This document shows positions 6,601 through 39,023 of a stretch of 39,172 nucleotides of DNA, in pieces (the stretch's first letter is position 1; every line of letters begins with the position of its first letter). Where the stretch lies: contig JAFGIK010000067.1 of the NCBI GenBank assembly GCA_016929645.1, forward strand, positions 1 to 39,172, given 5' to 3'. Below the pieces are notes generated by a model. The model was not told where the DNA came from. It did not search any database and was given only the letters and a program-made list of their open reading frames with translations. The stretch comes from Candidatus Dojkabacteria bacterium. GTDB taxonomy: Bacteria > Patescibacteriota > Dojkabacteria > SC72 > JAFGCJ01. Position numbers and translations under genes: made by a program.

Positions 6601-7680
6601 CTAGCCGTATTTTTCGTTTATTTGTGCCACAGGATTTCGATCGAGTTCCATAATTTCTCTGCTATTTTCCAATATCCTTATTCCTGTTTCTTGTTTTAAG
6701 TTTAAATAAGCGGCTATGCCTACCATTGCGGCATTATCAGTGAAAAGCCTGCTGGAGTAGGGATGATATGCTTTAATTTCGGCGTCTTTTGCAATTTTTT
6801 TAATCGCTTTCCTAATTTTTTGGTTTGAAATGACACCTCCACCCATTAAAATGCATTTGGGGTGATAGGTGTCGATCGCTATTTTAAGCTTCTTTTCGAG
6901 TGATTTGATGACCGACTGCTCAAACTCAGCACAAAAGTCGTAAACCCATGTTTTCGGTGATTTCTGCTGCTTTTGTATTTCGCGAATTTTATAAAGACAT
7001 GCGGTTTTTAATCCTGAAAAGCTGAAATTCATGTCAGCCGATTTTTCCATGGGTATTGGCAGGTGAAATCTATTTGCCTGAGCTGATCCTTTTCGTGCGA
7101 ATTCAGAGATTACAGGGCCTCCTGGATAGCCAAGGTCTAGCATCTTTGCGAGTTTATCAAAGGCCTCGCCAGCTGCATCATCAAGAGTCTCTCCAATAAT
7201 TTTGTATGAACCTATTTTTTCTGAATAGATAAGCTCTGTGTGACCACCTGAGATCAAGATCCCGATAATTGGAAATTCATTAAGATTTAATGAATTTTTA
7301 GAATTTCCTTTAGAATTTTTTGCAAAAGAAGAAAGAAGGTGACCTTCCATATGATTTATGGGAATAAGGCTAATTCCATTATCTATTGCTAATTTCTGTG
7401 CTTTCTTGATTCCGACTTCGAGTGCTATTGCTAGTCCTGGCCCATATGTAACTGCTATTGCATCAATATTATTAATATCTAATCTAGCTTTTTTTAATGC
7501 TTCTTCCGTGACTTTGTCAATCTTTTCCTGATGTGCTCGTTTGGCGATAGTGGGAACAACTCCTCCCCATTTTTTGTGAAGTTCGATTTGGGATGAGATA
7601 GTGTTTGAGATTACACGATCATTTTTCAAAACTGCAACTGAAGTTTCATCGCATGATGTATCTATTGCAAGAATATTCAT
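6601..7680 (-). CDS. tsaD: tRNA N6-adenosine threonylcarbamoyltransferase TsaD
   Basis: The product has 359 residues from the ATG at 7680. That start begins MNILAIDTSCDETS, the canonical TsaD N-terminus; the frame stays open 36 nt further but without family homology. Metal-binding H110 and H114 lie in NHMEGH. The ASKHA phosphate motifs are present: ISGGHTEL, LDDAAGEAFDKLAKML and MGGGVISN. TsaD transfers threonylcarbamoyl to A37 of ANN-reading tRNAs, normally with TsaB, TsaC and TsaE, none of which is in this window. A TATACA -10-like hexamer sits immediately upstream at 7690-7695 (minus strand), so the message may be nearly leaderless. It runs tail to tail with the transglutaminase gene, with only 31 nt between the ends. 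Confidence 0.96.
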   Translation of the reverse strand: MNILAIDTSCDETSVAVLKNDRVISNTISSQIELHKKWGGVVPTIAKRAHQEKIDKVTEEALKKARLDINNIDAIAVTYGPGLAIALEVGIKKAQKLAIDNGISLIPINHMEGHLLSSFAKNSKGNSKNSLNLNEFPIIGILISGGHTELIYSEKIGSYKIIGETLDDAAGEAFDKLAKMLDLGYPGGPVISEFARKGSAQANRFHLPIPMEKSADMNFSFSGLKTACLYKIREIQKQQKSPKTWVYDFCAEFEQSVIKSLEKKLKIAIDTYHPKCILMGGGVISNQKIRKAIKKIAKDAEIKAYHPYSSRLFTDNAAMVGIAAYLNLKQETGIRILENSREIMELDRNPVAQINEKYG

Positions 7681-7769
7681 AGCGCTGATTGTATAACAAA
7701 AAGAGTTCTTTAACAAAGGAATCTTATGAGTAAGAGTATGATATTCGCATTTGTGGTATGGCTATGGTT

Positions 7770-8651
7770 TTATAGCTCTTCTAGTTTTTGGTGTGTTCCG
7801 TTTTCCTCTTTATTCAAAATATTGAGGTATTTTTCTGTTGTTGAAAGTCTTTTGTGACCAACAAGCTTTGATACAGTAACAAGACTTACGCCATGAGCTA
7901 AATGATGTGCAATAAAAGTGTTTCTTAAATCATTAACTTTAGAATCCTTAATGCCAGATTTTTCAAATGCTCTATCTATTGATGTTCTTATATTTCTTAC
8001 AAGTAAAGGATTTCCGTTCTTAGTTACAAATATAATTGTTGATTCGGATTCTGGTCTAATTTTAATATATTCATTTATCGCCTTTAGTGCAGATGCATTT
8101 AAAGGTACCTTTCTGGATGGATGGCTGCCAAATTCCTGGATGAATAAGTATTTTAATTTCCCATCTGAGGTTGTTCGAATATCTTCTAGTTTTAATCTTG
8201 TTAATTCTCCAATTCTAATTCCTGTCTGAAGTAATATTTCAACTATTGAAAATAATCTGATATCAGCTCTGCTGACATCTCTTAATGCACGATATTCCAT
8301 TTCTGATAAAACTCGTGGTGGTTTCGTCTCGAATTTTGGATGGGAAAGTTTTTCGGAAGGGTTTTCTGTAATTGAACCTTGGGACATCATGAACTTAAAA
8401 AATGTTCTGATGCTGTTGATTTTCCTTGAGATACTTTTGGGTGTATATGTTTGATCCTCTAAGCCTTTTTTAAATTGTTCAAGGGTCTCAATAGTTACTT
8501 CTTTAGGATTTGTTAATCCGTGGGAAGAGAGAAACTTTACAAGTTGTTCAATATCTTTACCATATGCAATTATAGTAGATTGAGATCTAGAGTTTTCCTT
8601 TAGGCTCGTAAGAAATCTTTCATGTAATTCATTAAATGTATTATCAGACAT
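7770..8651 (-). CDS. tyrosine recombinase, XerC/XerD/XerA-like
   Basis: This 293-residue protein has an N-terminal SAM-like DNA-binding domain (1-100) and a C-terminal catalytic domain. The visible active-site residues are R146 (TGIRIGEL), K181, R243 (DLRNTF), H266 (LVGHKRLSTT) and Y275 (EKYL). The first histidine of the usual HxxR box is replaced by N240. The length and single-gene setting fit a chromosomal Xer recombinase resolving chromosome dimers, as with XerA/XerH lineages that use one protein, better than a phage integrase: no phage genes or att sites are visible. A good sigma-70-type promoter lies about 60 nt upstream. It is 89 nt ahead of tsaD on the same strand. Confidence 0.88.
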   Translation of the reverse strand: MSDNTFNELHERFLTSLKENSRSQSTIIAYGKDIEQLVKFLSSHGLTNPKEVTIETLEQFKKGLEDQTYTPKSISRKINSIRTFFKFMMSQGSITENPSEKLSHPKFETKPPRVLSEMEYRALRDVSRADIRLFSIVEILLQTGIRIGELTRLKLEDIRTTSDGKLKYLFIQEFGSHPSRKVPLNASALKAINEYIKIRPESESTIIFVTKNGNPLLVRNIRTSIDRAFEKSGIKDSKVNDLRNTFIAHHLAHGVSLVTVSKLVGHKRLSTTEKYLNILNKEENGTHQKLEEL

Positions 8652-18885: not shown

Positions 18886-20490
<1,605 letters not shown>

Positions 20491-20718
20491 CTAAGGAGAT
20501 GTGTAAATGCTCTAGCTACCACGTTTTAGTTTTCAAAGCATTAGCTCTTTTAACAAAATGTATAGTTCAGCCTGTTTATCTGAAACTGTTCTTGTGGCTG
20601 TTGTTTTGTTCTAACTGAATTTGAGTATATCAAAACTCAGATATAGTTTTCGGTTTTATTTTGTGCAAGAAATTGGGAGTTTTTTCTTGTCAGGTGTAGC
20701 GGTGTGAGCTAAGGAGCA

Positions 20719-20795
20719 GGGCGCATAGCTCAGTTGGCTAGAGCGCAGTCCTGATAAGACTGAGGTCCCAAGTTCGAGACTTGGTGCGCCCACCA
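20719..20795 (+). tRNA. tRNA-Ile (GAU), CCA encoded
   Basis: The acceptor is GGGCGCA/TGCGCCC. The anticodon stem CAGTC/GACTG has loop CTGATAA, giving anticodon GAT. CCA is encoded at 20793-20795. It lies in the 16S-23S spacer, the classical place for tRNA-Ile. Confidence 0.97.
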
Positions 20796-20920
20796 GTTTT
20801 TGTTGTGCTTGCAAATTAAAATACATCTATGTATCTTAATTAAATAGTTAGACCTTAACAAAACTTAGTTGAAATTTTGAAATTTTTTTCAAAATGGATA
20901 GAGTCAAGTCATATTAGAAT

Positions 20921-20994
20921 GGGGCTGTAGTTCAACTGGCTAGAACACTACATTTGCAATGTAGAGGTCGGTGGTTCAAGTCCACCCAGCTCCA
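20921..20994 (+). tRNA. tRNA-Ala (UGC)
   Basis: The acceptor GGGGCTG/CAGCTCC contains the G3-U70 wobble that specifies alanine. The anticodon stem CTACA/TGTAG has loop TTTGCAA. CCA is not encoded. It is the second tRNA of the 16S-23S spacer. Confidence 0.97.
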
Positions 20995-21104
20995 CAATAG
21001 TTTTGTTATATGTAGAATTTGTTCATCAGTCAAAATTCTTACGAGTTTTGTTCGATGAGCAATTTCTAATTGAGATTGTTCATTTGCTCTTTTTTATGTT
21101 TTTT

Positions 21105-21222
21105 ATCTTCAAAATTACTTCAGTATTTTTGAAGATTAGTGAGACTGCGATGTGTGTATATAGTTTTGTTTTACAAGTAAAACACTTCAGTATTTTACTT
21201 GAAGAGCGAGACTGTGATGCAG
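21105..21222 (+). repeat. tandem stem-loops with a shared loop in the 16S-23S spacer
   Basis: The first hairpin has ATCTTCAAAA (21105-21114) and TTTTGAAGAT (21127-21136). The second has CAAGTAAAA (21174-21182) and TTTTACTTG (21193-21201). The stems differ, but both loops contain ACTTCAGTA, and each is followed by a similar GAGACTG-C/T-GATG block. A third perfect stem, TTTCGATA/TATCGAAA around CTTG, is at 21234-21253. Confidence 0.65.
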
Positions 21223-21280
21223 TGGAGACGAAGTTTCGATACTTGTATCGAAAGGTAGCGAACGTAGTCACACTCGAGAT

Positions 21281-21339
21281 GGGGCTATCTAACAGATTTA
21301 TCTGGGTAGATTAGAGTGGTTCAACTCCATTCAGCTCCA
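21281..21339 (+). pseudogene. tRNA-Ala-like remnant in the 16S-23S spacer
   Basis: This 59-nt element starts GGGGCT and ends with a T arm (AGTGG, loop TTCAACT, CCATT) and CAGCTCCA, all very close to tRNA-Ala(UGC) at 20921-20994. The sequence just upstream is also similar to that before the tRNA. The D and anticodon arms are missing. In their place one hairpin is formed: ATCTA and TAGAT outside, CAGAT and ATCTG inside. It cannot decode. It is probably a rearranged duplicate, or a tRNA-like signal for processing enzymes. Confidence 0.65.
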
Positions 21340-21413
21340 TGATCTTTTTAAAAAAACATTCTGATAATAAATGCAACCGAACATCTTTGTTGCATAACAT
21401 CAAAATGTTTACT

Positions 21414-21436
21414 GTACTTTTAAAACTGAATAGAAC
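21414..21436 (+). other. 23S processing stem, 5' half (3' half 24674-24696)
   Basis: The 23 nt at 21414-21436 pair with 24674-24696 over their whole length; the only two differences are G-U wobbles. This is the bracketing stem for RNase III release of 23S. Confidence 0.85.
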
Positions 21437-21472
21437 GAAGTCCTTTGTAGCCTTTGGGGCTATAAAGGATAA

Positions 21473-24668
<3,196 letters not shown>

Positions 24669-24686
24669 TTTTAGTTCTATTCAGTT

Positions 24687-24768
24687 TTAAGGGTACTACA
24701 TAAGTTTTTCTTTGGAAGATGATTTTTTTGAAATCAATTCCTCTCAGAAATTTATGTTGTACCCTTAA
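24687..24768 (+). other. long hairpin between 23S and 5S
   Basis: TTAAGGGTAC and ACATAA (24687-24703) pair with TTATGT and GTACCCTTAA (24752-24768), interrupted by one T-T mismatch: 16 bp in all. Its left arm overlaps the 3' half of the 23S processing stem (24674-24696), so the two structures exclude each other. Confidence 0.65.
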
Positions 24769-24851
24769 AAAGAATATTTGAATTTGTGTTCATTTAAAAA
24801 GAAATATTTTGCAGCCGCAAGACATGAATGTTTATATCTTATGAACTTTCG

Positions 24852-24971
24852 TGCCTGGCGGCTGTAGAGGAGTGGTTCCACCTGATCCCATCCCGAACTC
24901 AGAAGTTAAACGCTCCATCGCCGAAGATACTTTGACCTCACGGTCTCGGAAAAATAGGTCGTCGCCAGGAC
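24852..24971 (+). rRNA. rrf: 5S ribosomal RNA
   Basis: The gene is about 120 nt. Terminal helix CCTGGCG (24854-24860) pairs with CGCCAGG (24963-24969). The conserved CCATCCCGAACTCAGAAG and AAACGCTCCATCGCCGA blocks of bacterial 5S are present. It is the last gene of the rRNA operon, about 180 nt after 23S. Confidence 0.95.
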
Positions 24972-37174: not shown

Positions 37175-37251
37175 GGGCCCGTGGCTCAGCTGGCTAGAGC
37201 ACTTCAATGGCATTGAAGGGGTCGCGAGTTCGAATCTCGCCGGGTCCACCA
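37175..37251 (+). tRNA. tRNA-Ala (GGC), CCA encoded
   Basis: The acceptor GGGCCCG/CGGGTCC has the G3-U70 alanine identity pair. The anticodon stem CTTCA/TGAAG has loop ATGGCAT. The T arm is GCGAG/CTCGC. CCA is encoded at 37249-37251. It is the third alanine isoacceptor in the window, after UGC and CGC. Confidence 0.96.
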
Positions 37252-37586: not shown

Positions 37587-38588
37587 TTATGTTCTAGACT
37601 TTATCTTGTTAATAATTTTCAGAACAATATCATAAAACTTCTTTGCTTCAATTGATGTAATAACGAGTCTTTCTCCAATCTGATAGCTCGAGTCGGTTGT
37701 TTCATGAAGATATTTTTGATCTACAATACCTTGCTGATGTTCCAAAAGGTGTCTTCTTTTAAACATTAAGAACATAAAGTTAAATTCACTTTTTGATAAC
37801 CAGTCCTGATATCCTTGCCCAAGGTTTTCATTCCATAATGAACTTCCTTCATAAGGTCTTTGAAAGACATTCATTTTAAGTTTGATCTTTGGGTACTTAT
37901 TTTTAAATTTATGCTCGCAAAATCTTTGAAACGCTGACACGATATCTTTGATTGAGGTTTCTAATAATTCTCTTGCTGTATTCTTCGCTTGATCTCTATC
38001 TATTTTCTCAAGTTCTTCTTTTATCTTTTCTGTATTTTCGATCTTAAATAAGATTGAAGCCATGGAATCGTCAAAAGTAGAATCGATATCATTAAAGCCG
38101 CAAGATGGGCAGAAATATGCAGAACCAATTACAGCATATCTAGAATTGCATTTTGAACATTTAATTTTTCTTTCGATCTTTTGCTGTGCGGAAATTGGAA
38201 GAATTTGAGTTGAAGAATGAAAACCTTTAGGTTGCATTCGCATTTGAATAAATCCTTTTACATATTTGGAATTAAACTTTCTAGAATCTTTCTTAATAGC
38301 GGTCCCAAGTCTTGCACTTATATTATTCACGGCTTTTTGTTTAGCTGCCTCTATCTGTTCTGTCGTAAAGAAGTTTTCTGCTAAAGAACCTTTTCCACAC
38401 ATAGGACAAAATACTTCTTCATCTCTAAAAATATTCGCCCAATCATTTTGATTAACTTTAAATACGAATTTACAGTTGTTATTGGGGCACTCTTTATCGA
38501 TGTAGCCATCTTCATCTGGATTAATAGGTATGCTTACCGTATGTGTTCCATCGAGATTGTTTAATTCTTTTATTAAATTTTCAAACAT
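37587..38588 (-). CDS. zinc-ribbon protein with C-terminal HEPN-like RNase motif
   Basis: The product has 333 residues from ATG 38588. Two zinc-binding clusters are visible: C34, C39, C61, C64 and C144, C147, C160, C163 (CSKC and CPSC). The helical C-terminal region (about 180-333) contains R279-H-L-L-E-H284, a textbook Rx4H HEPN motif with a polar residue after Arg, followed by GIVDQKYL and SSYQIGERLVI. HEPN domains with this motif are usually metal-independent RNases in toxin-antitoxin, abortive infection and CRISPR systems. The zinc ribbons suggest nucleic-acid binding. The start overlaps the stop of the upstream HTH gene (ATGTTTGA), so translation is coupled. RNase activity is inferred from the motif; the family is not one I can name. 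Confidence 0.65.
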   Translation of the reverse strand: MFENLIKELNNLDGTHTVSIPINPDEDGYIDKECPNNNCKFVFKVNQNDWANIFRDEEVFCPMCGKGSLAENFFTTEQIEAAKQKAVNNISARLGTAIKKDSRKFNSKYVKGFIQMRMQPKGFHSSTQILPISAQQKIERKIKCSKCNSRYAVIGSAYFCPSCGFNDIDSTFDDSMASILFKIENTEKIKEELEKIDRDQAKNTARELLETSIKDIVSAFQRFCEHKFKNKYPKIKLKMNVFQRPYEGSSLWNENLGQGYQDWLSKSEFNFMFLMFKRRHLLEHQQGIVDQKYLHETTDSSYQIGERLVITSIEAKKFYDIVLKIINKIKSRT

Positions 38589-38778
38589 TTTTCTTTTCTG
38601 CCAAATTATCTTCAATAAACTCCTCAAAATACTTCTTCGGAATCCGATATCCATTCCCCAATTTTATAGCTTTCAATTTTCCAGACTTAATATAATTCAG
38701 AACTGTCTGCCAGTGAACTTTTAAAAATTCGGAAACTTCTGCGACTGTGTAGACACCTTCTTCTGATTTCTTTTTCAT
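38581..38778 (-). CDS. excisionase-family helix-turn-helix protein
   Basis: This is a complete 65-residue MerR-like/excisionase domain: VYTVAEVSEFLKVHWQTVLNYIKSGKLKAIKLGNGYRIPK. That is the pattern of the 'excisionase family DNA binding domain' (helix_turn_helix_17): helix-turn-helix, then a wing ending in a basic YRIPKxxFEEF segment. It is the first gene of a two-gene unit with the zinc-ribbon/HEPN protein and overlaps it by 8 nt. A promoter and a GTATA/TATAC palindrome over the transcription start lie just upstream, which suggests autoregulation. No integrase is adjacent, so a true excisionase role is less likely than a regulator. Confidence 0.85.
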   Translation of the reverse strand: MKKKSEEGVYTVAEVSEFLKVHWQTVLNYIKSGKLKAIKLGNGYRIPKKYFEEFIEDNLAEKKNV

Positions 38779-38788
38779 ATTTTGAGAG

Positions 38789-38801
38789 GTATAAACTATA
38801 C
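38789..38801. promoter_or_regulatory. candidate operator of the HTH/HEPN operon
   Basis: GTATAAACTATAC has perfect 5-bp half sites (GTATA/TATAC) around AAC. It covers the expected transcription start (about 38801), where a bound repressor would block initiation. Confidence 0.5.
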
Positions 38802-38807
38802 TAAATC

Positions 38808-38836
38808 ATTATAACTTGTTGATAGAAGTAATGCAA
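38808..38836 (-). promoter_or_regulatory. promoter of the HTH/HEPN operon
   Basis: On the minus strand, TTGCAT (38836-38831), a 17-nt spacer and TATAAT (38813-38808). The predicted start is near 38801, 23 nt before the HTH ATG. Confidence 0.8.
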
Positions 38837-38980: not shown

Positions 38981-39023
38981 GGAGTGATTGGGTGGACGTC
39001 TTCGACCTCCACCCAATCACTCC
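38981..39023. repeat. 16-bp perfect palindrome, GC-richer than its surroundings
   Basis: The arms 38981-38996 and 39008-39023 are exact complements. Inside, after one C-C mismatch, GTC and GAC pair around TTC. No T tract follows on either strand. The rest of 38837-39128 has no gene. A TATAAT on the minus strand (38977-38972) abuts the palindrome but lacks a -35. It may be a recombination or replication hairpin, or an operator. Confidence 0.7.

Follow-up and report, generated by a model that had tools for sequence, protein, structure and literature searches.

Proteins that join a HEPN domain to a zinc ribbon have been described in restriction-modification (R-M) operons, where the HEPN-ZnR proteins comprise the EC042_2821/DUF3644 and DUF4145 families (PMC3710099), and HEPN RNases also occur in two-gene operons in the HEPN-MNT toxin-antitoxin systems. 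The C proteins, RptR and BrxR/CapW are small regulators of defence islands (PMC12255303), and PMC11811056 traces the PDC systems of the PADLOC collection to Payne et al. 2021 and calls them unpublished candidates. The gene pair described here has features in common with all of these, and lies in a contig (C92) of 39,172 nucleotides, from a 1.59-Mb Candidatus Dojkabacteria genome, which was analyzed in its entirety and is referred to as the window.

The 333-residue product of the second gene (zinc-HEPN protein) resembles the HEPN-ZnR proteins in its predicted architecture and in the restriction-operon context of its relatives, but it has no direct Pfam match to either DUF3644 or DUF4145, and its profile match to the latter is weak. 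As in the HEPN-MNT systems, a predicted HEPN RNase is encoded within a two-gene operon, but there is neither an MNT gene nor a dedicated antitoxin; the initial annotation had remarked on the absence of MNT, and neither gene adjacent to the zinc-HEPN gene encodes an MNT nucleotidyltransferase, its sole overlapping partner being an HTH_17 gene. Like the C proteins, RptR and BrxR/CapW, the 65-residue HTH_17 product is a short DNA-binding protein whose gene opens a defence or R-M operon and overlaps or abuts the gene behind it, but those regulators belong to other protein families, whereas this predicted regulator is of the HTH_17/excisionase type.

The gene pair and its upstream region

The two overlapping minus-strand reading frames reported in the initial annotation are both present, with the overlap ATGTTTGA as described (Table 1), and this overlap probably couples translation of the HTH and zinc-HEPN genes. 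The start codon assigned to the 333-residue protein is correct, as nearly all of its homologues open with M-F-x-x-L at the same point. The HTH gene starts 394 bp from the contig end on its upstream side, and no other defence genes were seen within the window. An rRNA operon (16S, 23S and 5S, with tRNA-Ile and tRNA-Ala in the spacer) occupies positions 18886-24970.

Table 1. Coordinates of the predicted genes, domains and sites, with the loci of related gene pairs.
Feature	Position	Strand	Basis
HTH_17/excisionase-type DNA-binding protein, 65 aa, predicted transcriptional regulator	38581..38778	-	PF12728, TIGR01764; same-phylum relatives
Zinc-HEPN protein, 333 aa, predicted RNase of PDC-M14A-related family	37587..38588	-	PADLOC PDLC04447; 78-homologue alignment
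8-nt overlap ATGTTTGA of both reading frames	38581..38588	-	Sequence
First Cys4 cluster, residues 34-64 (C34, C39, C61, C64)	38397..38489	-	Invariant in 78 homologues
Second Cys4 cluster, residues 144-163 (C144, C147, C160, C163)	38100..38159	-	Invariant in 78 homologues; weak zinc-ribbon Pfam hits
C-terminal HEPN-like domain, residues about 172-333	37590..38075	-	hhalign to HEPN_RiboL-PSP
R279-H280-x3-H284 motif, predicted RNase active site	37737..37754	-	Invariant in 78/78, kept in remote members
Possible promoter TTGCAT-17-TATAAT	38808..38836	-	Present in sequence; not above chance
Possible operator GTATA-GTT-TATAC	38789..38801	-	Present; not above chance
HTH_17 + zinc-ribbon gene pairs	L155, L156, L157, L160, L161, L164, L167, L168, L176		

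A promoter and a GTATA/TATAC palindrome had also been proposed upstream of the HTH gene. Both exist as written, but the -35 element of the promoter agrees with the consensus at three of six positions, and the region contains 10 promoter-like sites against a shuffle mean of 7.2 (sd 3.0), showing no enrichment. For the palindrome, shuffling the 45-nt stretch that holds it gives a 5-bp inverted repeat as good in 49% of cases. Since neither element exceeds chance, both were dropped as evidence of regulation. The stretch from the HTH gene to the contig end holds a 20-bp inverted repeat (38981-39023; 95% complementary, with a 3-nt loop) that folds into a very stable hairpin (z -6.8); it has no Rfam match, no T-tail and no further copy in the window.

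The zinc module and the C-terminal domain

Residues 17-165 of the zinc-HEPN protein, with the two Cys4 clusters that we infer to bind zinc, match the PADLOC model PDC-M14A (PDLC04447) with an E value of 2.2e-18, and all 78 of the homologues match it too. At 152 positions, this model leaves out the HEPN domain. The second component expected from the system name, PDC-M14B, was recognised in neither the HTH nor the zinc-HEPN gene at E values up to 10, in a contig that ends a short distance upstream, and a literature search found no paper that names PDC-M14. The initial annotation spoke of an undescribed system; that description holds only in part, since PADLOC already lists the zinc module as a phage-defence candidate.

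Pfam HEPN models gave no direct HMMER match to the 333-residue protein or its C-terminal domain, and members of four HEPN families were therefore fetched and their profiles compared, a profile search that the initial annotation had itself proposed. The best match was to HEPN_RiboL-PSP (PF18735; hhalign probability 37.6%, E 3.4e-4, 112 columns), in which the R-H-x3-H of the zinc-HEPN family is superposed on R-N-x3-H. This match scores 30.4, whereas none of 60 column-shuffled controls exceeds 14.4 and the reversed profile reaches 16.1; an earlier round of decoys contained one score of 133 that did not recur in the 60-decoy repeat. The match to DUF4145 is weaker (score 22.0 against shuffles of at most 14.8; probability 8.8%), and the AbiU2 and ApeA HEPN profiles were ruled out, scoring no higher than shuffles. 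When the domain profile was run over 2,216 background ORFs, only three ORFs ranked above a pair of RiboL-PSP-type sequences (E 0.0013 and 0.0086): a longer frame of the query family, a Marinobacter paralogue, and the HEPN-like gene that immediately follows one homologue. Pfam RiboL-PSP matches one member of this pair with an E of 2.3e-6, 0.3 bits below the curated cut-off. No credible relatives of the 333-residue protein were found in the PDB.

The resemblance to HEPN_RiboL-PSP lies in the profile match, in the coincident R-x4-H positions, and in the FQN and RH-x3-H motifs that some RiboL-PSP-type sequences also have. The zinc-HEPN family differs in that its similarity falls below Pfam detection, in its RH-x3-H-x2-G-x2-D-x2-Y signature and N-terminal zinc ribbons, and in lacking an endoRNase L-PSP fusion. 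The HEPN assignment made in the initial annotation is supported by the invariant R-x4-H and by this best profile match, and we consider the C-terminal domain likely, although not proven, to be HEPN, with R279 and H284 as the residues through which it would cleave RNA.

Relatives of the zinc-HEPN protein and their neighbours

The zinc-HEPN family is widespread and travels with bacterial anti-phage genes. In a tblastn search, relatives at 43% identity (Aliarcobacter) and 37% (Phaeobacter and Sinorhizobium) turn up on plasmids, and remoter ones in Emticicia, Miltoncostaea, Marinibacterium and elsewhere; some sit on conjugative plasmids. A scan of GTDB genomes gave 103 relatives, of which 80 loci were retained. 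In an alignment of 78 proteins from about ten phyla the eight cysteines and residues R279, H280, H284, G287, D290 and Y293 are all invariant, and NxFQ (240-243) nearly so. Both the paired four-cysteine clusters and the R279-H-x3-H284 motif that had been pointed out in the window protein are therefore kept in 78/78 homologues, far above chance, and the loss of R279 or H284 that would have spoken against the initial reading was not seen.

Within the phylum, a full-profile search of 379 genomes yielded one other clear member (G097) and one marginal partial match (G222). Two matches from the first phylum survey were dropped, L015 because it looks like a zinc-lid adenylate kinase, and L014 because the profile search did not confirm it. 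In the tree the window protein falls within a 25-row, mostly pseudomonadotan clade (support 100/98), separate from the G097 protein; its exact sister is from Maribacter, an unsure placement that joins two long branches. Horizontal acquisition of the gene is the simplest reading of this pattern. A viral origin was rejected, as searches of IMG/VR and of phage records found no relatives. The tRNA-Ala gene at 37175-37251 was rejected as an attachment site, since its 3' end has no second copy in the genome within three mismatches and there is thus no sign of tRNA-site integration.

Several relatives have unusual arrangements. Marinobacter profundi (L033, 3558-4700) encodes a second zinc-HEPN relative (75 bits) about 1.6 kb downstream of the first. 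At locus L086 a HEPN-like gene (7033-7836) directly follows the zinc-HEPN gene, and its R-N-x3-H, followed by IVDRKF, resembles the motif of the first gene. In Sinorhizobium medicae pSymA (L010, 5001-5786) the C-terminal HEPN part alone is left, joined in frame to unrelated sequence, which suggests recombination near the domain border.

Where a sizeable gene is present directly upstream or downstream of a zinc-HEPN gene it is usually a defence gene, an association that is given without a measured background rate of neighbours. These include HsdR, HsdS, type ISP restriction enzymes, an MmeI-like enzyme, Cap15, a KAP NTPase, PLD and OLD nucleases, a HATPase (MORC-like) protein and IrrE-type peptidases, and the PADLOC families among 131 immediate neighbours include capP, capH, RmrA, GajA, SAVED and MADS proteins, together with type I and IIG restriction enzymes. 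No defence partner is common to the surveyed loci, and many homologues have no operonic neighbour. The initial annotation had suggested a toxin or defence function, and the link with defence is supported by the PDC-M14A match and by the restriction and Abi-type neighbours. Taken with the HEPN profile, these make a defence-associated HEPN RNase likely, bearing in mind that guilt by association is no proof of defence.

The HTH_17 gene and interpretation of the pair

The 65-residue protein is an excisionase-type HTH protein, as originally described, matching PF12728 (HTH_17) above the curated cut-off over residues 9-58 of 65 (E 8.6e-15) and TIGR01764 (excise; E 3.5e-12). Of 379 genomes sampled from the phylum, 127 have similar genes. 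Among the best 29 relatives, serine recombinase genes directly follow or overlap the closest ones (60-64% identity), and the partners of others, downstream or fused, are DNA methylases, GmrSD_N, and EcoO109I- and TdeIII-type endonucleases; the 20 genes lying downstream of or fused to HTH relatives in the phylum include five for recombinases and about ten for R-M functions. These contexts make the HTH protein most likely an interchangeable leader regulator, not a dedicated antitoxin, and it plausibly regulates transcription of the operon. Nine of the best 29 relatives are in a separate type of pair (Table 1), in which a small zinc-ribbon gene of roughly 57 codons with C-x2-C motifs lies within about 10-20 nt behind the HTH_17 gene, or overlaps it in L160.

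The initial annotation treated the HTH and zinc-HEPN genes as one dedicated module, in which the HTH protein would repress the operon and directly neutralise a HEPN toxin. The overlapping genes, the small first gene with a DNA-binding fold and the HEPN second gene all fit such a toxin-antitoxin pair. A survey of gene neighbours, set beforehand as the test of this pairing, nonetheless places an HTH_17 gene immediately upstream of the zinc-HEPN gene in none of 85 homologue loci, so that the conserved antitoxin-toxin linkage of type II systems is absent; the HTH_17 genes that come closest lie 567 bp off on the opposite strand (L084) and 615 bp upstream (L045), and because the contigs of some loci, such as L021 and L018, end near the zinc-HEPN gene, a few upstream neighbours may be missed. 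The HTH relatives precede recombinase and R-M genes, not HEPN genes, and the DNA-binding domain takes up almost the whole HTH protein, with little left over for binding a toxin; neutralisation is without support. The toxin-antitoxin pair was accordingly rejected as the best explanation, and we regard it as improbable. Slightly less probable still is a regulatory or housekeeping RNA-binding protein with an inactive or non-defence HEPN domain, hitch-hiking in defence islands; the diversity of neighbours and the want of a single conserved partner would suit it, but the active-site R and H are invariant in 78/78 proteins, and the distribution is sporadic (a single other clear member in the phylum) and extends to conjugative plasmids.

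We favour, as the somewhat better than even explanation, a horizontally acquired HEPN-type RNase that is cargo or an accessory of anti-phage loci, preceded by a generic regulator. The two N-terminal zinc ribbons of the 333-residue protein would recognise a nucleic acid, or a partner, that arises during infection, the predicted HEPN domain (R279, H284) would then cut RNA, and the cutting would stop phage or host growth, as with other second-line HEPN nucleases. The 65-residue protein would be a generic HTH_17 regulator of the operon, translationally coupled to the zinc-HEPN gene, and of a type that stands before varied mobile and defence genes in the phylum. A narrower form of this explanation, which we think rather unlikely, has the RNase standing beside a restriction system that holds it inactive or that it senses, as PrrC does with PrrI, and being here either alone or with partners past the contig end. 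The recurrence of the family beside HsdR, HsdS, type ISP and MmeI-like genes and the earlier finding of HEPN genes within R-M operons (PMC3710099) are in its favour, but the partners vary widely, many homologues lack an adjoining R-M gene, and none was seen in the window, where the contig ends close upstream. A little more readily, although still tentatively, we can envisage the broader possibility that the family is an undescribed RNA-cutting arm of immunity, stand-alone or added on, whose zinc module is a sensor and which plugs into many unrelated defence systems, and that in Patescibacteria it is under a general HTH_17 controller shared with recombinases and restriction genes.

The zinc-HEPN gene of the window is a newly found, probably horizontally acquired member of an already known candidate defence family. 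Until now the zinc module was just a PADLOC name and the C-terminal domain was without any Pfam model; for this candidate family there is now a probable activity, that of a HEPN RNase, and there are residues to mutate. The contexts of the small HTH_17 genes in the phylum suggest that they control mobile and defence genes interchangeably, and two-gene HTH-effector pairs in these bacteria should thus not be taken for toxin-antitoxin systems on their arrangement alone.
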